Shown here: positions 4,843 to 61,715 of the stretch, piece after piece | Position numbering within the stretch: position 1 is the stretch's first letter | Layout: each line of letters opens with the position of its first letter | Source: an uncultured Verrucomicrobiales bacterium | GTDB taxonomy: Bacteria > Verrucomicrobiota > Verrucomicrobiia > Verrucomicrobiales > DEV007 | Length of the DNA: 64,000 nt | Direction: 5' to 3' | Assembly: GCA_937891465.1 (NCBI GenBank) | Contig: CALAHF010000105.1 | Coordinates: 1 to 64,000 of the forward strand | Notes under the pieces: model-generated | Databases searched by the model: none | What the model saw: the letters and a program-made list of their open reading frames with translations, nothing else | Told to the model about the DNA's origin: nothing | Translations under genes and position numbers: made by a program

Positions 4843-4890
4843 TCACGAGTCAACAGGGTTGGTTAATCGAATGCACCCTGTTACTTCGTA
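4843..4890. repeat. Palindromic repeat R2, head-to-head
   Basis: The arms tcacgagtcaacagggtt and accctgttacttcgta oppose each other around ggttaatcgaatg. It lies between the MOSC gene and the thioredoxin-like gene, just upstream of the latter's start. Confidence 0.8.
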
Positions 4891-11581: not shown

Positions 11582-11632
11582 TTCACGATCGAATAGGGTC
11601 TGTTCAACGTACGCACCCTATTGGATCGTGAA
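11582..11632. repeat. Palindromic repeat R3, head-to-head
   Basis: The arms ttcacgatcgaatagggt and accctattggatcgtgaa are near-perfect inverse copies around a 15-base centre. It lies between two convergent genes (ends 11577 and 11647), so it could serve as a bidirectional terminator, but it has no long T-tract. Confidence 0.85.
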
Positions 11633-16353: not shown

Positions 16354-16400
16354 AACGAACCAATAGGGTCTGTTCATCGAACCAATCCTGTTGCTTCGTG
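16354..16400. repeat. Palindromic repeat R4, head-to-head
   Basis: The unit cgaaccaatagggtctgttc is followed by the opposing arm accaatcctgttgcttcgtg. On the minus strand it contains an ATG opening M-N-R-P-Y-W-F-V, the same peptide used as a real start at R5. It lies between two divergent genes, just ahead of trpS. Confidence 0.85.
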
Positions 16401-18749: not shown

Positions 18750-18797
18750 TTCACGAATCAACCGTGTTGAATCGATGAACAAACCTTATTGGATCGT
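18750..18797. repeat. Palindromic repeat R5, forms the start of the PSCyt gene
   Basis: The arms tcacgaatcaaccgtgttga and aaaccttattggatcgt surround atcgatgaac. The ATG inside the repeat (18775) is the start codon of the following gene, and the right arm encodes its first eight residues. Confidence 0.82.
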
Positions 18798-21700
18798 TGC
18801 AGCTCTATTCTGCGGATCGGCGGCATCCGCCGAAGCCGAGGACATTGATTTCAACCGCGATATCCGTCCGATTCTTTCGGAAAATTGTTCGCATTGTCAC
18901 GGACCCGATTCCGAAGCGCGCAAAGCGGATTTGCGAATGGACACGCAACTTGGAACGCGTGCTGACCTTGGCGGAACAGTCGCAATCGTTCCCGGTGATT
19001 TGGACGCGAGCGAGGCCTGGCAACGAATCAATCACAACGATCCGGATGAAATGATGCCGCCACCGAATTCGAACCGGCACGTTTCAGCGAAAGAAAAAGA
19101 CCTTCTAGAAAAGTGGATCCTCGCTGGTGGAAATTTCGAAGAGCACTGGGCGTATCTGAAACCGGTCAAAGCAACGGTCCCGGACGGCACGAATCCGGTT
19201 GATCATTTTGTGCGGGAAAAACTGGCGCAACTTGGAATGAAACCGTCGCTCCCGGCAAACAAACGGGCGCTGATTCGACGGGCGAGTTTGGATATCACAG
19301 GACTACCGCCGACTCCTGATGAAGTGGCTGCGTTTATCGCAGACGAATCAAATAAAGCTTTCGAACTCGTCGTTGAGCGTCTTCTAAAATCCCCGCGATT
19401 TGGAGAACGCTGGGCGAGACCATGGCTGGACCTAGCACGCTACGCCGATTCGAATGGTTATCAGGCCGATCAAATTCGTGATAGCTGGGCCTACCGAGAC
19501 TGGGTGATTGATGCCCTGAATTCCAACATGCCGTTTGATCAATTTACGATCGAACAGCTCGCTGGTGATCTATTGCCCAATGCGACTCTGAGCCAAAAAA
19601 TCGCCACGGGATTTCACCGGACGGTTCCATGCAACGTCGAAGCAGGAGTTCATCCGGAAGAAAATCGAACCAATCAAGTCATCGACCGTGTGAACACGAC
19701 GGCAACGGTATGGCTTGGGTCAACGCTGGAATGCTCCCAGTGCCATGATCATAAATTCGACCCGTTTTCGATGAAGGATTACTACGGAATTTTTGCTTAC
19801 TTCAATCAAACCCCGTTGGAAGTTCAGAATCGCAGCGGCAAAGGCGTGAGCTTCGATTTTTACGGTCCCAAAATGGAGCTGCCGATGAGCGCGGACAAAG
19901 AGGCCACTCGAAAAAACCTCGAAACTGAAGTCGCAGCTCTAAAAACGAAGCGGTCAACACTGACGGGTGGCTCGAAAAAGGATCGATCAGATTGGGAAAA
20001 AAGGATGTTCGCCGCCTCGAAACAGGCAGGGAAATGGGAGGTTCTTAAAATCGATTCCTTTTCCGGAACGGGGAACGAGACCTTCAAAGATCTCGGCGAT
20101 GGCTCGATTTTAGTGACGGGTCCGAATCCGGATAAATCGACCTATACAATTTCTGTATCGACAAAACAGGGCGGAATTCGAGCGGTCAAGATCGAGGCGT
20201 TGACTCACGATTCGCTTCCCGCAAACGGCCCGGCGAGGGGAAATGGAAATCGTCCCAACGTCATCCTCAGCGAAGCAAGACTTGAAATCGCGGAAGCAGG
20301 TGGAAAAGCCGAGGTCGTTCAACTTTCCAGAGCGACCGCAGATTTTTCTCAAAAAGGCTGGGATGCAGCCGCTTTGATCGACAACGATTTGAAAACCGGC
20401 TGGGCAATCAGTCCCCAGTTTGGAAAAGATCACTGGATTCAGTTTCGAACCGGTAACGGCACGAAAGGAATTGGGAAATCGGATTCCGAAAATGAACTCA
20501 AGCTCACTCTGATCCAAAACTACGGTAGTCAGCGCGTGATTGGTCGGCTGCGAATTTTGGTGACGCGAGATGACCCGTCCGCTTCAGAGTTGAAGCCCGA
20601 ATTGATCACATTGTTTCAAAAACCGGCGAAAAATCGGACCGCACCCGAAAAGAAGAAACTCGATGCGCTGTTCGCAGATACGAATCCCCAGCTCAAAGCC
20701 GTTGATCAAAAAATCAAACAAGCAGAAATCCGCTTGAAATCCGTTGAGCCGGATTCAACCCTGGTGATGGTCGAGTTGGAGGAAGCTCGTGAAACTCATG
20801 TGATGAAACGCGGGAACTATCTGGATAAAGGCGATCAGGTTGGCGCGGGAACGCCTGGACTCTTGCACCCAATCAATGAGTCACTTCCCGAAAACCGTTT
20901 GGGATTTGCGCAATGGCTGATGAATTCAGACAATCCGCTCGTCGCGCGCGTGACGGTAAACCGGTGGTGGGCCGAAATTTTTGGGCGGGGGATTGTCCGC
21001 ACGGTTGAGGATTTTGGGACGCAATCGGAACCACCGACTCACCCTGAACTTCTTGATTGGCTGGCGGTAGAATTCGCCGAAAGCGGATGGGACATGAAAA
21101 ATATCATCAAAACAATCGTGATGTCGGAGACGTATCAGCAGTCATCAGACATTTCCGAAGACGCTCTCGAAATCGATCCCGAAAATCGTCTGCTTGGGCG
21201 TGGCCCGCGATTTCGAATGAGTGCTGAAATGATTCGTGACACTGCGCTCACGGTGAGTGGATTGCTTTCTACAAAAATGCATGGACCTCCGATTATGCCG
21301 TATCAGCCCGCCGGAATGTGGCGACAAGTCGGACGAAATGAGCCGACTTGGATTGAAGCAAAGGATGAAAATCGCTGGCGACGCGGGGTGTATGTCATTT
21401 GGCGACGAGCAGCTCCTTATCCGAGTTTTGTAAATTTCGACGGCCCTGACCGAAGCGCCTGCGTTGTTCAGCGCCCGAGAACTAATACTCCGCTCCAAGC
21501 GCTAACCTTACTCAACGATCCGGTTTATACCGAAGCCGCGCTGGCTTTGGCCGATCGGATATTGCACGAACTCCCCGATGCAGAGCCTGAACAGCAGATC
21601 GAACGGGCTTTTAAAATTGTGCTCAATCGCAAACCGACGAGCGAGGAACGGGAACACGTCAAAACAATGTTAGAAGATCGCCTTGCAAAACTTCGGGCCG

Positions 21701-21846
21701 AGTCTGATCTCGCTGAAGATGCGATCACCGGTGCCAGCGCCGTTTACAAACCGAAGTCAGACAAATCCAAACGAGCCGATTTGGCCGCGTGGTATTTTAT
21801 CGGAAACGTCCTTCTCAATCTCGACGAAGTCGTGACGAAAGGATGA
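18775..21846 (+). CDS. Secreted PSCyt1-DUF1549-DUF1553 cytochrome-like protein
   Basis: A 1023-residue protein of the planctomycete/verrucomicrobial type. Its signal peptide is MNKPYWIVAALFCGSAASA. A PSCyt1 c-type haem motif follows (ENCSHCHGP, CxxCH). Next is the PSCyt2/DUF1549 domain (~residues 155-365, with RFGERWARPWLDLARYADS and a second CxxCH in LECSQCHDHKF). A beta-rich insert (~390-600) has DHWIQF, reminiscent of a discoidin-type fold. The PSD1/DUF1553 domain (~700-1010, with NPLVARVTVNRWW and NTPLQALTLLNDPV) ends the protein. A DUF1501 gene usually follows such genes and is absent here. The start codon and first residues come from repeat R5. The biochemical role of the family is not established. 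Confidence 0.93.
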   Translation: MNKPYWIVAALFCGSAASAEAEDIDFNRDIRPILSENCSHCHGPDSEARKADLRMDTQLGTRADLGGTVAIVPGDLDASEAWQRINHNDPDEMMPPPNSNRHVSAKEKDLLEKWILAGGNFEEHWAYLKPVKATVPDGTNPVDHFVREKLAQLGMKPSLPANKRALIRRASLDITGLPPTPDEVAAFIADESNKAFELVVERLLKSPRFGERWARPWLDLARYADSNGYQADQIRDSWAYRDWVIDALNSNMPFDQFTIEQLAGDLLPNATLSQKIATGFHRTVPCNVEAGVHPEENRTNQVIDRVNTTATVWLGSTLECSQCHDHKFDPFSMKDYYGIFAYFNQTPLEVQNRSGKGVSFDFYGPKMELPMSADKEATRKNLETEVAALKTKRSTLTGGSKKDRSDWEKRMFAASKQAGKWEVLKIDSFSGTGNETFKDLGDGSILVTGPNPDKSTYTISVSTKQGGIRAVKIEALTHDSLPANGPARGNGNRPNVILSEARLEIAEAGGKAEVVQLSRATADFSQKGWDAAALIDNDLKTGWAISPQFGKDHWIQFRTGNGTKGIGKSDSENELKLTLIQNYGSQRVIGRLRILVTRDDPSASELKPELITLFQKPAKNRTAPEKKKLDALFADTNPQLKAVDQKIKQAEIRLKSVEPDSTLVMVELEEARETHVMKRGNYLDKGDQVGAGTPGLLHPINESLPENRLGFAQWLMNSDNPLVARVTVNRWWAEIFGRGIVRTVEDFGTQSEPPTHPELLDWLAVEFAESGWDMKNIIKTIVMSETYQQSSDISEDALEIDPENRLLGRGPRFRMSAEMIRDTALTVSGLLSTKMHGPPIMPYQPAGMWRQVGRNEPTWIEAKDENRWRRGVYVIWRRAAPYPSFVNFDGPDRSACVVQRPRTNTPLQALTLLNDPVYTEAALALADRILHELPDAEPEQQIERAFKIVLNRKPTSEEREHVKTMLEDRLAKLRAESDLAEDAITGASAVYKPKSDKSKRADLAAWYFIGNVLLNLDEVVTKG

Positions 21847-23529: not shown

Positions 23530-23574
23530 TCGAATCAACAGGGTCTATTCATCGAACATACCCTATTAGTTCAT
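23530..23574. repeat. Palindromic repeat R6, head-to-head
   Basis: cgaatcaacagggtctattc and ataccctattagttcat oppose each other around atcgaac. It lies between nadC and birA, upstream of birA. Confidence 0.85.
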
Positions 23575-23633
23575 AGGGCTATCTTCCGGTTCCGCTGTCG
23601 CGGTATCCTCAGACCGCTGGCAAGCCAGTTTGT

Positions 23634-23651
23634 CACCCTGTTGGTTCGTAG
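23634..23651. repeat. Half copy of the repeat unit (R6b)
   Basis: The sequence caccctgttggttcgtag is a single opposing arm of the same family, 60 bases from R6 in the same intergenic interval and ahead of the nadC stop. Confidence 0.65.
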
Positions 23652-29486: not shown

Positions 29487-29532
29487 GAACGAATCAAGCC
29501 TATTGCTTCGCCGAAGCAACAGAGTTCGATCA
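29487..29532. repeat. Degenerate palindromic repeat R12
   Basis: gaatcaagcctattgcttcg and cgaagcaacagagttcgatc are opposing half units with substitutions. The sequence lies between the AP2-like and methyltransferase genes. The match is weaker than for the other copies. Confidence 0.5.
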
Positions 29533-31372: not shown

Positions 31373-31423
31373 TTCACGAACAGACCCTATTGATTCATCG
31401 ATTCAATAGGGTCTGTTCGTAAA
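31373..31423. repeat. Palindromic repeat R7, tail-to-tail
   Basis: acgaacagaccctattga and tcaatagggtctgttcgt are perfect inverse copies around ttcatcgat. The arms run in the opposite order to R2-R6. It lies between the 3' end of tRNA-Leu and rplU. Confidence 0.88.
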
Positions 31424-31435
31424 AACTATGGAAAA

Positions 31436-31517
31436 TACCGGGAACAGGACTCGAACCTGCACGCATCTCTGCACTTGAACCTAAATCAAGCGTGTCTACC
31501 AATTTCACCATCCCGGC
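31436..31517 (-). tRNA. tRNA-Leu (anticodon UAG)
   Basis: An 82-base cloverleaf. Acceptor strand GCCGGGA pairs with TCCCGGT (closing G-U pair), and the discriminator is A, as in leucine tRNAs. The anticodon arm is cttga-tttaggt-tcaag, which gives UAG. The D-loop is AAATTGGTAGA. The T arm is GCAGG-TTCGAGT-CCTGT. A variable stem (GTGCAGAGATGC region) marks it as class II. CCA is not encoded. Confidence 0.96.
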
Positions 31518-37673: not shown

Positions 37674-37720
37674 CACGAATCAACAGGGTTTGATCGATGA
37701 ATCAACAGGGTTTGATCGAA
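37674..37720. repeat. Direct tandem repeat R8
   Basis: Two direct copies of gaatcaacagggtttgatcg (37677 onward), separated by two bases. In contrast to R2-R7, both point the same way. It lies between mutS and the HAD gene, just upstream of mutS. Confidence 0.85.
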
Positions 37721-50253: not shown

Positions 50254-50284
50254 TTCACGAACCAACAGGGTGAGTTCATCGATT
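50254..50284. repeat. Single repeat unit R9
   Basis: ttcacgaaccaacagggtga followed by gttcatcgatt is one unit of the family, without a clear second arm. It lies between two convergent genes (ends 50243 and 50284). Confidence 0.7.
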
Positions 50285-55762: not shown

Positions 55763-58114
55763 CTATTGAATAAAAAGGAATTGGCGCGAGTTGAGCAAAG
55801 CCCAGACGAGGTCTTCGATCGTTTCCTCTCCGTGGGTTTCGTAGTTGGATAAGATACGCGCCACTTCATGCTCAGTTGGCTTTCTCGTGAACATGGATCG
55901 GTAAATGATGTCGATTTTCGCCTCGGGTGTCGCCGCTGAATTCAGCTTTGCACCAAGCACGGAGTTCGGATTGTAAATCGCAATGCTAAGAGGGCTGTTC
56001 AGCAAATAGAGCGACTGCGGCACCGAGGCATGCGAAGAGGCGTTTTCGATCACATCGCGATCCGATTGACCAAAGTCTCGTAAAAAATGTCCTCGGCGAG
56101 CAGGCGATCCCAGATCAACGGCCCGTGCCATTTCCTTCGCGGTTTCACGAAAAAGTTGAAATTGTTTTTTCTCGCGATCTTCCCAACTCTTCCGTTCGTT
56201 TTTGTCCAAACCTTCGGGTGCTTTGGGTGGTTTCGCTTCTTTGATAAACTGGATCGTATCGCCGGTATTCGCAGCGGCAGGACCGCCCATCATCATCGGG
56301 GAATCGATGGCGTGCCCATCTTTGAGATCGACCAGCACGATTTCTCTGGCTTGCTTTTCCACATCGCGAGTCTTCTCCTTCAGTTCGTGAGTCAGCTCCG
56401 CCGCCGTCTCACCTTCTCCAGCCTCGTAGGCTGCGGTGATTCGTTTTTCAAAGTCTCTTTGCTCGGCAATCAATCCACGACGCAAGTCACCTGCGGCCTT
56501 CATTCGAGGCAATACTTCCTCCAGTGGCCGTTCGTTGAGACTGCGATAAGTCGCACGGGTAGCAGCGATTCGTTCGAGCAATTTAGGTCGATTTGGAGCG
56601 TGCGTATCGACATTGGGGAGCACGAGCGTGACAATGGAATCCCACATCTGCTCTGCGCTCATCCGTTTCATCAACGGTCCCTGGAAATGGAACGGCAACC
56701 CGGGAAGGTGATCCTCTCCATGCATTTCCCGGCGAAAGAGCTCCGTGTGAAAGAGCACCTTTTGAAAGGCTCGAACATCATAGTTCAAGGTGCGCATCAG
56801 ATCTTCGAGGTAGCTGAGCAACTCCGGCTGACTAATCGGAGTGTGGTCGGTCAGGTCATCAACCGGCTCAAAAATGCCGTGACCAAAGGTACGTTTCCAA
56901 AGTCGATTGACGATCACTTGAGTGAAACGCGGATTGTCAGGGCTCGTCAGCCATTCGGCATAGGCTTTCTTCCTTTCCGCAGGATCATCGGACTTCGGAA
57001 TCTCCGCTCCGAACATGGTTCCGGTCGACACCGGATCAAGCGGCGTTGCATCATCGTATTGATAGTCGTGCGGCAATTTCAGCTGAGTGTCCTGAAGATG
57101 ACGGACCTCGACATAGGTCACCCTATTATACAGCGGCCCAATCGATAGATAAACGGCCTCGTTATGTTCTTCGACCGCCGCCCGAGCGGCGATAGCGCGA
57201 AGTGCGTGTTCACGAAATTGTTTTTCCGTTAACCCACTACGCTCCAGGAATTTAGAAATATTGGATTTCGCGAGCTGCTTTTCGATATCCGCTTCGTCTT
57301 TCAAAAAGGGGAAACCCTCGACCTTGACCGCATCGAAGTAAGCCGCTTTCTCCTCTTCCTTGAGCACAGCATGAACACCGGCTCGATGAGGATTCCCGCC
57401 ACGGTGATCAAAACCGTAGGTAAACGCCGCCATTCGGAAATAATCCATCTGCGTCCACTTATCGAAAGGATGATTGTGACACTGCGCACACTCCAGTCTC
57501 GTGCCGAGAAAAATTCGCACCGTGTTCGACATGTTGTCGAGATCCATCCCCGTGTCGCGAATGTAGTAACCTGCGGCAGGATTATCGAAAACAAGACCGT
57601 GACCGCTGACGAGTTTTCTCACCAACTCGTCATACGGAGTGTTGGCCGCGATCTGCTCCTTGATCCAGGTTTGATAGACCAGGCTCCAGTGCTGGCCTGT
57701 GGGGAGCCGCAAGAGATCCGCCCAAAACTGAAAGTGATGAGCCGTGTATCCAGCGTCGTTTTTTAGTAAAGAATGAATCAGTTCAGAATACTTCTCTGAT
57801 GAAGTCGATTCGAGAAATTCATCCGCTTCGGCGATGGTCGGAATGCGTCCAATGTTCGCAAGATAAGTCCGGCGGAGAAACTGCTCGTCGGAAATTTCGG
57901 GATATGCCTTGAGTTTTTGTTCCGCAAGATTCGCGGCGATGAGTTGATCAATTTCCTTAGCGGCTGGACGTGGGTCCAACTCAGCAAAAGAACTTGAGAC
58001 GAACAGGAACACTCCCATCAAAAAAACGAACCAATAGGGTATGTTCGATGAACCAATAGGGTACGTTCGTTGACCTAACAGGGGATGATTGCGAAAAAGG
58101 TGTGTGAGTTTCAT
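55763..58114 (-). CDS. Secreted DUF1549/DUF1553 (PSCyt2-PSD1) protein
   Basis: A 783-residue protein. The chosen ATG at 58114 (MKLTHLFRNHPLLGQRTYPI) precedes a signal peptide (IPYWFVFLMGVFLFVSSSFA). The frame stays open to 58234, and a GTG at 58201 has a good Shine-Dalgarno (see 58206-58238). The DUF1549 domain has FLRRTYLANIGRIPT and the CxxCH of LECAQCHNHPFDKWT. DUF1553 has NPRFTQVIVNRLWKRTFGHG and SLYLLNSPL. There is no PSCyt1 domain, unlike the copy at 18775. About 14 residues (TYPIGSSNIPYWFV) before the signal core are encoded by repeat R10. Confidence 0.9.
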   Translation of the reverse strand: MKLTHLFRNHPLLGQRTYPIGSSNIPYWFVFLMGVFLFVSSSFAELDPRPAAKEIDQLIAANLAEQKLKAYPEISDEQFLRRTYLANIGRIPTIAEADEFLESTSSEKYSELIHSLLKNDAGYTAHHFQFWADLLRLPTGQHWSLVYQTWIKEQIAANTPYDELVRKLVSGHGLVFDNPAAGYYIRDTGMDLDNMSNTVRIFLGTRLECAQCHNHPFDKWTQMDYFRMAAFTYGFDHRGGNPHRAGVHAVLKEEEKAAYFDAVKVEGFPFLKDEADIEKQLAKSNISKFLERSGLTEKQFREHALRAIAARAAVEEHNEAVYLSIGPLYNRVTYVEVRHLQDTQLKLPHDYQYDDATPLDPVSTGTMFGAEIPKSDDPAERKKAYAEWLTSPDNPRFTQVIVNRLWKRTFGHGIFEPVDDLTDHTPISQPELLSYLEDLMRTLNYDVRAFQKVLFHTELFRREMHGEDHLPGLPFHFQGPLMKRMSAEQMWDSIVTLVLPNVDTHAPNRPKLLERIAATRATYRSLNERPLEEVLPRMKAAGDLRRGLIAEQRDFEKRITAAYEAGEGETAAELTHELKEKTRDVEKQAREIVLVDLKDGHAIDSPMMMGGPAAANTGDTIQFIKEAKPPKAPEGLDKNERKSWEDREKKQFQLFRETAKEMARAVDLGSPARRGHFLRDFGQSDRDVIENASSHASVPQSLYLLNSPLSIAIYNPNSVLGAKLNSAATPEAKIDIIYRSMFTRKPTEHEVARILSNYETHGEETIEDLVWALLNSRQFLFIQ
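58023..58083. repeat. Direct tandem repeat R10, translated into a signal peptide
   Basis: cgaaccaatagggtatgttc and tgaaccaatagggtacgttc are two direct copies, with a partial third unit (cctaacagggg). Read on the minus strand they encode residues just ahead of, and within, the signal peptide of the PSCyt2 protein (PYWFV). Confidence 0.85.
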
Positions 58115-58205
58115 CAATTTGTGCAACGTCAGGATTGCTTTCCAGGGAAAATCAAACAGGGCAACTGTCGGCATAATCAATCGCAAAGCAGGAGTGCTCA
58201 CTAAA

Positions 58206-58238
58206 TAAGTTCCTCTCGTCAAAAAATTGGCCATTTTT
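58206..58238 (-). promoter_or_regulatory. Leader element, copy A (also before the sigma gene)
   Basis: On the minus strand the sequence tgacgagaggaactta is identical to copy B (61580-61614), with similar A/T-rich sequence upstream. GAGAGGA is followed by a 9-base spacer and a GTG (58201), exactly as in copy B. GGAACTT also resembles the -35 box of many ECF sigma promoters. Which role applies is undetermined. Confidence 0.6.
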
Positions 58239-58274
58239 TTCGAACTTTTTTCCGTGGCGCGAGGTTATTGTTAA

Positions 58275-59686
58275 TTAGAAAGTCTCCCGGCAGTTCAATG
58301 GCGACCGGGACCTTCTTGTCACGCAGCAGTTTGGCCCTCGATCAACCGTAAATGGGCTGCCGCTCACCTCCACATCATCTTTTGTGTAGCGAACTTTCGC
58401 CCATTGATTCTTGATCGGTAGCCGGAACTCCATCCAGTCCCAGGCTTCGGGCAACGCAGGGCGAATCGTCAGCTTCTCGTCCGGGACGGATAGATGCAAT
58501 CCTGCGAGGCCTTCAAGGTAGAGCAAGGCGACTTCGGCGACATCGAGATATCTCGCATCCTTATGCAGAAGAAACATCCGGTGATTAAAAAAGACGTTGC
58601 CTACTGCGGCGCAGGTCTCGTTGAAGGCGTGGGCATTGGGAAGTTCATACTGCGGTCCGAATCCTTCGATTCCATGAACTGCCCCGAGTCCGCCGGTGAT
58701 GTGCATCCGCATGTTGGTAATGTCGCCCCAGATTCGATCGAGTGCCTCCGCGTATCCTTTCTCGCCAGTTAATGCAGCCATATCAGCCATCGCGGAATAG
58801 AGGTGGTTGCTCGAACCGCGTGACCGACCGCTTGACTCTGCTTCAGCACTGGCTTGTGCTGCTGCGCATAGGTCGGCGACATGACGCCTTCGCCATCCGG
58901 CACATAGATGACGCCTCGGACCTCGAGAAACTTCCGCTCCATTTCGAGATAGAGCTCGTTTCCTGTAACGCGGTAGAGTTTCACCAACGCGAGCTCCGGC
59001 TCCTGATGCCCGGGGGCCTGCCGAATCGGCTTACCTCCATTGTAATCCGGATCGCCTTCAAAAAAGACCTTATTAATATGCTGTGCGTTTTTCTCTGTAA
59101 TTTTGAGTAAAGCGTCTTTGCCGGTGGTCTCGTAGTAGGCGACCGCGGCCTCGTAGAGATGGCCCATGTTGTAGAGCTCGTGACTGTGGACGACAAAGGA
59201 ATACGGCTTGTCTCCCATCATGTTCTTCTCTGTCCCGACCCTGGTCGTATGCGACGGATACAAATACCCGCTCGGCTCCTGCGCCTCACCGATCACGGCG
59301 ATGATTTTATCCATCCTCGCTTCAAGATCCGGATTGCGTTCCAGCTGCAGGAGATAGGCAGCGCCCTCCATCACCTTGTAAAGATCGGAGTCGATGAAAC
59401 GATGAGCCCGGTGATCTTCCACCGCCTTTCCTTTCTGAAAATCTGCCGCGGCCTGGAGATGGGCGACTCCCGGCTCGGTTCGTTCAAACGCCCACGGAAC
59501 CGGTGTTTCGCGCTGAGTGATCATTCGCGGTCGCCAGAAATTACTCGTCATTTCAACGTCGTTGTAGGAGACAGGTTTCAACGGGTAGTCGGCCGCAAAA
59601 CCAGCCCCTGCATGAAAGGTTACCGCAATGGTTGCGAGGAACGTGAGACAGTATATTTTCATAGAGGCATGCAATTCGTTTGGCAT
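58275..59686 (-). pseudogene. GH127 (DUF1680) beta-L-arabinofuranosidase-like gene, frameshifted
   Basis: The first part (59686-58769) has a signal peptide (KIYCLTFLATIAVTFHAGAG) and GH127 sequence (NDVEMTSNFWRPRM, APGHQEPELALVKLYRVTG). It breaks after VGHAVRATT. The frame continues at 58790 with MADMAALTGEKGYAEALD and HITGGLGAVHGIEGFGP. Restoring one base at ~58797 would give VGHAVRAT-YLYSAMADMAA. The expected catalytic CCPP region is also missing, and total length (~470) is short of the usual ~650. A further shift near 58330 is likely, since LLRDKKVPVAIELPGD lies in another frame. It is probably nonfunctional. Confidence 0.85.
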
Positions 59687-61018: not shown

Positions 61019-61575
61019 TGTGCTGCCTCCTCTTCAAGCCCGAGTTGCCGCTCGATGCATTTTTGCAATTGCCCACGAACCCGGTTGAGCCGTTTGTAAA
61101 TCTTGTTGGCAGTCTCACCAGCCTGTTCGGCAAAGGATCGAATTGTGGCGCCTTCCGCATAACAGCTCACCACCATTTTGTGGTCGGTAGGTGGCAACTT
61201 CTCAACACAGGAGTCGAGGGCCCGGCGGCGGGCATCGAGATTCTCCGCTCGGTCTTCTGCTTGCTCAGCCAACAACTCAACGAGATTTTCGCTAAAGACG
61301 TGTCGGTCGCGGCGCACTTTCGTGAGGTGATTCAACGCCGCATTCTTGGCGACCTGGAGGGCCCAGTTTCGGAAATTGGTTCCAACCTCATACTGATCAA
61401 GGCAGCGCCACATCGTCAAACTGGCCCGCTGCACCACATCTTCGGCATCTGCCGTATTCCGAACCATCCCCAGAACGAACGAAAAGATCGCCGGTTCGTG
61501 TCGCACATAGAGCGAGACGAATTCTTCGTGACGGGATGAATCTGGAGTTGGGGATGCCATGAAAGGGGTTTCCAC
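61015..61575 (-). CDS. ECF RNA polymerase sigma factor (Rhodopirellula/Verrucomicrobium type)
   Basis: An ECF sigma factor of 186 residues. The sigma2 region (~25-90) has FVLGMVRNTADAEDVVQRAS and YEVGTNFRNWALQVAKNAAL. Sigma4 (~125-175) has CVEKLPPTDHKMVVSCYAEG and SFAEQAGETANKIYKRLNRV. It matches the subfamily found in Rhodopirellula and Verrucomicrobium. The GTG at 61575 has GAGAGGA at a 9-base spacing; an ATG at 61560 is the other option. It leads a seven-gene locus and is coupled to the FecR gene. It probably controls itself and the PSCyt-sulfatase genes. Confidence 0.92.
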   Translation of the reverse strand: METPFMASPTPDSSRHEEFVSLYVRHEPAIFSFVLGMVRNTADAEDVVQRASLTMWRCLDQYEVGTNFRNWALQVAKNAALNHLTKVRRDRHVFSENLVELLAEQAEDRAENLDARRRALDSCVEKLPPTDHKMVVSCYAEGATIRSFAEQAGETANKIYKRLNRVRGQLQKCIERQLGLEEEAAQ

Positions 61576-61579
61576 AGAC

Positions 61580-61614
61580 TAAGTTCCTCTCGTCAGAAAA
61601 TTAGCCAACTTTTT
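61580..61614 (-). promoter_or_regulatory. Leader element, copy B (before the sigma gene)
   Basis: tgacgagaggaactta on the minus strand, with A/T-rich sequence upstream that matches copy A (58206-58238) in most positions. It places GAGAGGA 9 bases ahead of the sigma gene's GTG. If GGAACTT were a -35 box, the -10 would fall at the start codon, so a ribosome-binding role fits better here. Confidence 0.6.
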
Positions 61615-61667
61615 CCATTTTTTGCGCGAAGATTCAGTATCGATCCCTGTTCGGACGCAACGCCTTC

Positions 61668-61715
61668 ATGATCCAACAGGGGGCGTTCGATGAACCAACC
61701 CTATTGCTTCGTGAA
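61668..61715. repeat. Palindromic repeat R11, head-to-head
   Basis: catgatccaacagggggcgt and aaccaaccctattgcttcgtg surround tcgatg. It lies between the divergent sigma factor and alcohol dehydrogenase genes. Confidence 0.8.

Follow-up and report, generated by a model that had tools for sequence, protein, structure and literature searches.

Introduction

Palindromic elements that lie in frame within genes are known from Rickettsia (Rickettsia palindromic elements, RPE; Ogata et al., 2000, 2002; PMC10969869; PMC2229807), and in Yersinia an RU-2/YPAL element in YPO1552 forms a MITE-built signal peptide (Delihas, 2007; PMC2759123). The uptake sequences of Neisseria (DUS) have a spacing that matches conversion fragments, often occur as inverted pairs and lie in permissive regions (PMC2397512), and molecular drive should spread USS evenly (PMC7811141); DUS and USS are short single motifs, only about 10% of them inverted (PMC1939737). 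The REPIN doublets of Pseudomonas fluorescens SBW25 are placed at random in extragenic space (PMC3116915). Here, we describe a genus-restricted, dyad-forming, REP-like repeat family in an uncultured Verrucomicrobiales bacterium (GenBank assembly GCA_937891465.1), starting from the 64,000-nucleotide stretch of contig CALAHF010000105.1 that was analysed (the window) and from one gene in it whose N-terminal coding region carries the repeat. A repeat read in frame within a gene (Rickettsia) and one within a signal peptide (Yersinia) thus have precedents; what is new is the frequency of such cases here and the spacing rule that the repeat obeys.

The repeat array of the PSCyt2/PSD1 gene

The protein of ORF 55763-58234(-) matches the Pfam domains PSCyt2 (2e-40) and PSD1 (1.2e-31), and the two direct copies that the first-pass annotation had placed in its N-terminal coding region are present, in frame and in a 22-nt phase. 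Its features are as follows.

55763-58114, minus strand: gene for a PSCyt2/PSD1 (DUF1549/DUF1553) protein (Pfam)
57983-58114, minus strand: probable signal peptide of 44 aa, MKLTHLF[RNHPLLGQRTYPIGSSNIPYWFV]FLMGVFLFVSSSFA (from homologue N-termini)
58027-58047, minus strand: repeat unit 1, proximal to the h-region, CGAACATACCCTATTGGTTCG, read as NIPYWFV
58049-58069, minus strand: repeat unit 2, CGAACGTACCCTATTGGTTCA, read as RTYPIGS
58071-58091, minus strand: decayed third unit in the 22-nt phase, CAATCATCCCCTGTTAGGTCA, read as NHPLLGQ (PWM score 5.3)

Units 1 and 2 stand head to tail with a 22-nt period and belong to a family with the motif CGAACNNACCCTRTTGGTTCG, which has 12 matches at up to 3 mismatches in the window against 0.01 expected. 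Because 22 is not a multiple of 3, the outer and inner units are read in two different frames. The score of the decayed unit is reached by about 3 in 10,000 (0.03%) random positions on that strand, and since this unit shares the 22-nt phase, the array takes up everything between MKLTHLF and FLMGV. The ORF is open through both copies (...RTYPIGS-SNIPYWFV-FLMGVFLFVSSSFA, followed by ELDP), its translation agreeing with the earlier reading of PYWFV directly before FLMGVFLFVSSSFA; the minus strand from 58114 to 57983 is MKLTHLFRNHPLLGQRTYPIGSSNIPYWFVFLMGVFLFVSSSFA, ending at the presumed mature start ELDP.

Four candidate starts, 58114, 58174 (ATG), 58201 (GTG) and 58234 (ATG), each put the repeat inside the protein. 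The sole start downstream of it, the in-frame ATG at 58018, leaves MGVFLFVSSSFA, which has the 12 residues first stated and lacks a positive n-region. Between 58174 and 58092 the codon score is positive and beyond 58174 it is flat; no good Shine-Dalgarno sequence was found ahead of 58114. Homologues at ten loci have ATG-started export signals at the equivalent place, mostly of some 20-40 residues, and the N-terminus of the closest (57% identity) is MKTILTTALWVFGLCCSSISSAK, followed by DF. Because these export signals are of ordinary length and ATG-started, and 58018 would leave 12 residues, the repeat residues are very probably translated; the precursor would then contain RTYPIGSSNIPYWF.

Translation does not make the repeat necessary. 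Removal of the array in silico joins MKLTHLF to FLMGVFLFVSSSFA and gives MKLTHLFFLMGVFLFVSSSFA, still a classical signal peptide with an equally hydrophobic core, and the 10-residue hydropathy maximum is 3.01 with the array, 2.87 with the array deleted and 2.00 for the 58018 start. Of the proposal that the repeat residues are needed for export, the part on translation is thus well supported, whereas the part on necessity is not supported. The repeat is most likely translated but dispensable, and the array looks tolerated rather than required. No direct ortholog of the gene, with the state lacking the array, was found in the congener.

The gene stands in a module of the order ECF sigma - FecR - GH127 - PSCyt2/PSD1 - DUF1501 - two sulfatases. 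The GH127 beta-L-arabinofuranosidase gene consists of two overlapping ORFs, 58275-58790 and 58769-59686 (-), probably split by a frameshift, or by an assembly error. A 60-nt near-duplicate (77%), at 58190-58249 and 61564-61623 (-), lies ahead of two genes of the module, those for PSCyt2 and the ECF sigma factor; with GTG VSTP and VETP in register, it is possibly a shared promoter or start region. This repeat (D4) was rejected as a member of the family: the genome contains only the two copies seen in the window, and none was found upstream of homologues.

Other elements in the window

The window also contains these elements (the dyads marked as unstranded have no strand assigned):

700-742, unstranded: in-frame inverted dyad within the minus-strand gene glmM (3-857), read as NQQGSIDEPTLSDR
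4846-4888, unstranded: inverted dyad
11586-11628, unstranded: inverted dyad
16356-16398, unstranded: inverted dyad
18754-18796, plus strand: direct dyad, its second unit (18776-18796) overlapping an ATG and reading MNKPYWIV
23531-23573, unstranded: inverted dyad, followed by composite module A (about 23574-23649)
29490-29532, unstranded: dyad with units facing the other way round (>22<)
31377-31419, unstranded: dyad (>22<) adjoining a tRNA gene, 31436-31517(-)
37676-37718, minus strand: direct dyad
50258-50278, minus strand: single unit
61669-61711, unstranded: inverted dyad upstream of the ECF sigma gene

The second locus that had been paired with the PSCyt2/PSD1 gene, at 18754-18796, is real, and there the second unit itself supplies the ATG: MNKPYWIV begins the signal peptide of the PSCyt1/PSCyt2/PSD1 protein 18775-21846. 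This element is present in both congeners. In the other one the element-derived start is kept (L158:3274-3316, MNKPCWIV) and the remaining signal peptide has diverged. In glmM the copy inserts about 11-14 residues, an addition common to both congeners and absent from seven other genera.

Copy number, range and architecture

At up to 2 mismatches, 1,035 units were counted in the organism's own genome (5.97 Mb, 229 contigs, 95.6% complete), with none for the reversed control, 762 in a congener and 0-2 in the other genomes of the same search. A wider sample of other genera of the family and order yielded 0-12 units (up to 12 at 1 mismatch or fewer), and those read in the low-copy genera have the same dyad form. 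The consensus differs between the congeners (CCCTATTGG against CCCTGTTGG, the latter that of the 762-unit congener). When named genome contigs were scanned, matches fell almost only in Verrucomicrobiales bacterium SS_bin_30 (JABDJT01), which is apparently the congener.

Architecture was surveyed in 280 elements from stretches covering 1.66 Mb of the own genome and 1,420 called genes. The 21-bp units are joined at exactly 22 bp, as inverted (<22>, 108/280) or direct (<22<, 69/280) dyads, and dyads can stack at 32 bp (<22>32<22>, 17/280). Within units and across dyads alike, pairing does not exceed that of shuffled sequences; what is conserved is therefore not the hairpin. When MITE features were looked for, the flanks TTTYA/TRAAA proved symmetric, but neither a parent IS nor a cleanly resolved empty site turned up. 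Two longer modules, A of about 75 nt and B of about 100 nt, adjoin dyads, some lying inside split units. Module A is also translated (GDKLACQRSEDSREAESEDS) in the N-termini of two secreted proteins.

As in REPs, the elements are extragenic, form dimers and lie beside ORF 3' ends; conserved stem-loop pairing was not seen. The terminal unpaired GTAG or CGTC tag of the REP superfamilies was not recognised among 630 units, where a unit end is touched by GTAG in 21 cases and by CGTC in 81, contacts of the second kind being expected given the dyad spacer T. No Y1 (RAYT) transposase linked to units was found in the own genome's draft assembly (95.6% complete) or in relatives: the own genome has a single Y1 match, a broken fragment lacking units, and no units lie near seven further matches that were read in relatives, on which grounds a RAYT-driven REP was rejected. 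A decayed Y1 (REP-associated) transposase fragment at L080:1330-2030 has on its flanks a palindromic repeat of another, G+C-rich kind (CCGGTGGTTGAGCGCAGCGACACCACCGG type). An intrinsic terminator was also set aside, the flanks being TRAAA and not a T-run and the 69 direct dyads being unable to form a long hairpin, and so was an RNA element, the repeat having neither an Rfam match nor RNA covariation.

Placement relative to genes and coding copies

Elements are intergenic in 115 of 141 cases, against 9% of random positions, and most copies lie within the first 20 nt after stop codons, a proximity far above control. Gene overlap was seen for 58 of the 280 elements in the 1.66 Mb (16 at 3' ends, 15 internal, 27 near the start), leaving 42/280 coding copies away from the 3' end. 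Eighteen of these 42 fall in signal peptides as judged by hydropathy and a crude rule, not SignalP (2.7% expected, p 1e-17; a few of the 18 are doubtful and about a dozen are plain by eye, such as MKTVLNTS[FEPTGSVHRTNPIAS]FFAILLFASAAFGQ), and the element density of predicted signal peptides is 0.44/kb, that of the remaining coding sequence 0.010/kb. A simple codon-score caller set the gene starts, and part of the N-terminal copies may belong to untranslated leaders, a caution raised before (PMC3733652); in several sister cases there is no start codon at all after the element. In several coding copies the dyad centre GATGAAC itself gives the start (MNKPYWIV, MNQPCCFV, MNRFCWFA). The congener has further cases (L144, L232), and orthologs differ in both directions: the element in the signal peptide of L188 (G001) is missing from the G000 ortholog, and C163:77400 (G000) starts in a unit and its G001 ortholog does not.

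Internal copies occur in dnaE, panC, cysS, mnmA and others, that of CysS sitting in a linker of variable length. Simple insertion, which holds for GlmM, was rejected as the origin of every coding copy, since alignment of PanC and PyrD to PDB homologues shows at most a few additional residues (almost none in PanC). In panC (L057:11067-11109), pyrD (L053:12057-12099) and mnmA (L075:12195-12215) the copies replace and do not lengthen the native sequence by comparison with PDB homologues, as if the motif had arisen by substitution or conversion.

The first-pass annotation had concluded that two unrelated loci use the repeat for the same purpose. The wider survey does not support a common purpose: in 1.66 Mb the repeat occurs in some dozen or more secreted proteins that are unrelated, with frame and position varying among them, and it is also found inside GlmM, CysS, MenD and DnaE.

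Spacing along the chromosome

In a spacing survey of 28% of the own genome, intervals between elements average 5.8 kb with a CV of 0.548, against 0.888±0.05 for a random choice of intergenic gaps and 0.926±0.055 in a model matched for gap type and gap length; under either model 0 of 2,000 simulations were as low as the observed value. The congener, at its own density, has a CV of 0.428 against 0.742±0.078. Even spacing is robust to the score threshold, and the idea that weak elements are hidden in the long intervals was rejected, such elements turning up in just a few of 28 such intervals. Pairs at 0.5-1 kb show a 20-fold depletion, and the deficit ends near 4 kb. Lattice-like periodicity was rejected, the pair-distance profile being one of exclusion with just a weak excess at 5-8 kb; the rule is an exclusion zone of about 2 kb rather than a lattice.

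Coding copies obey it too, 9.5% lying less than 2 kb from a non-coding copy against 53% expected under random placement. Translated and untranslated copies stand under the same spacing, and therefore a DNA-level rule places both; because this spacing holds whether a copy is translated or not, protein export is unlikely to set element position. Congeners share 2 of 9 occupied syntenic gaps, a small sample, which suggests that sites turn over while the spacing persists.

Discussion

Taken overall, the observations are probably best explained by a REP-like element with DNA-level spacing that is tolerated in permissive coding sites. A DNA-level rule would separate neighbours by some 2 kb or more, with most copies directly 3' of stop codons, and coding copies would survive only where the protein tolerates an open frame, in flexible linkers and above all in signal peptides, which can host the repeat because little beyond charge and hydrophobicity constrains their sequence. 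The open frames of the unit (RTxPIGS, NxPYWFV) and the ATG of the dyad centre (GATGAAC) would then allow read-through or start donation. In the PSCyt2/PSD1 gene, a three-unit array would have joined an ordinary signal peptide and lengthened its n-region, and would not be what enables export. A repeat positioned at the DNA level can in this way alter proteins in the signal peptide, where they are most permissive, many times per genome, and supply start codons too. Mutual exclusion over about 2 kb, alike for translated and untranslated copies, is unexpected for ordinary REP elements, and it poses a testable choice between an uptake sequence, a chromosome-organising site and a mobile element with exclusion.

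The strong enrichment in signal peptides, and MNKPxWIV kept in two species with the rest of the signal peptide diverged, would agree with specific recruitment of the repeat for export as an adaptive signal-peptide module. Such recruitment is nonetheless highly improbable, since frame and position differ per protein, a good signal peptide remains after array removal in the PSCyt2/PSD1 gene, and all kinds of coding copies follow the same spacing rule. We also think it very unlikely that the repeat is an untranslated leader, with the true start at 58018 or later and the ORF extended by chance: although the ATG at 58018 is in frame and 58114 has no good Shine-Dalgarno sequence before it, that start would leave a 12-residue signal peptide without a positive n-region where homologues have longer ATG-started signals, the codon score is positive over 58174-58092, and several sister cases lack a start after the element.

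The agent that spreads and spaces the copies can be sought in three directions. A plain selfish palindromic element of the REP/MITE type, mobilised in trans and without a spacing function, for which signal peptides would be safe insertion sites, is conceivable but doubtful: it would fit the dimers, the position beside ORF 3' ends and the intragenic copies, as in GTAG/CGTC REPs (PMC3733652), the difference between species (2/9 occupied syntenic gaps shared) and the composite modules nested beside dyads, but REPIN doublets are random in extragenic space (PMC3116915) and the elements here are not, there is no GTAG tag and no hairpin covariation, and the Y1 matches (one broken, in the own genome; seven in relatives) are without units nearby. 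The strict 22/32-bp phasing (about 2 and 3 helical turns) in either orientation, the lack of RNA covariation and an even spacing that includes coding copies would suit a chromosome-organising or global regulator array, in which loops of about 4-6 kb would be anchored by a protein bound to the phased units along one face of the DNA; we hold this to be improbable, as most sites are not common to congeners, the repeat is genus-restricted and no candidate protein was identified. Also unlikely is a motif of the DNA-uptake-signal kind, by which the genus would recognise its own DNA for transformation, uptake-biased recombination giving tract-matched intervals and translated copies as by-products. 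Even spacing with an exclusion of about 2 kb in two species, permissive coding positions and inverted pairs after stop codons, a consensus that differs between congeners, the failure to find a linked transposase, the presence of ComEC, and a PanC copy with almost no added residues, as substitution would give, are all consistent with it; however, most units stand in dyads with strict 22/32-bp phasing and not as the short single motifs of DUS and USS, some copies (GlmM) are insertions, and ComEC is very widespread.

We raise only tentatively the prospect that the repeat would be the first sequence known in Verrucomicrobiota to act like an uptake signal or to space the chromosome, with about a thousand sites several kb apart set by a DNA-level process strong enough to enter signal peptides, start codons and essential enzymes at vacancies in the array. 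To our knowledge, no uptake sequence or comparable site array is known in Verrucomicrobiota.

Comparison with known systems

By description, the repeat is like RPE, short palindromic repeats that enter unrelated and often essential protein genes without breaking the frame and that occur between genes as well; in-frame copies in unrelated conserved genes that are absent from homologues are seen here in GlmM and the signal-peptide orthologs. It differs from RPE, which are about 105-150 bp with a long hairpin, in its 21-bp units, 43-bp dyads and unconserved hairpin, and in its even spacing, many signal-peptide cases and start-codon donation. The Yersinia RU-2/YPAL element has one main case, whereas here there are about a dozen or more in a quarter of a genome, plus the congener cases. 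With the GTAG/CGTC-tagged REPs, including those of Opitutus terrae, it shares unit size, dimers 1-2 bp apart, a position less than 20 bp from ORF 3' ends, intragenic copies and large numbers in a verrucomicrobium (PMC3733652); unlike them it has no GTAG tag, no linked RAYT that could be found, many direct (HT) dyads, 22/32-bp phasing and mutual exclusion over about 2 kb.

SBW25 REPINs share with it the inverted doublet as unit and the extragenic preference, but are RAYT-linked and randomly distributed, a placement from which the repeat departs (CV 0.548 against 0.926 in the matched model). The uptake sequences of Neisseriaceae and Pasteurellaceae (PMC2397512, PMC1939737, PMC7811141) likewise number about 1,000-2,000 copies, are spaced evenly, take a clade-specific form, occupy permissive coding sites and, in the case of DUS, stand as inverted pairs near gene ends, and the combination of high copy number and even spacing that marks DUS is found in the repeat; it differs in being a strictly phased dyad with a longer motif and insertion-type copies. 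In its spacing, the repeat thus appears to resemble DNA-uptake sequences rather than randomly placed REPINs.
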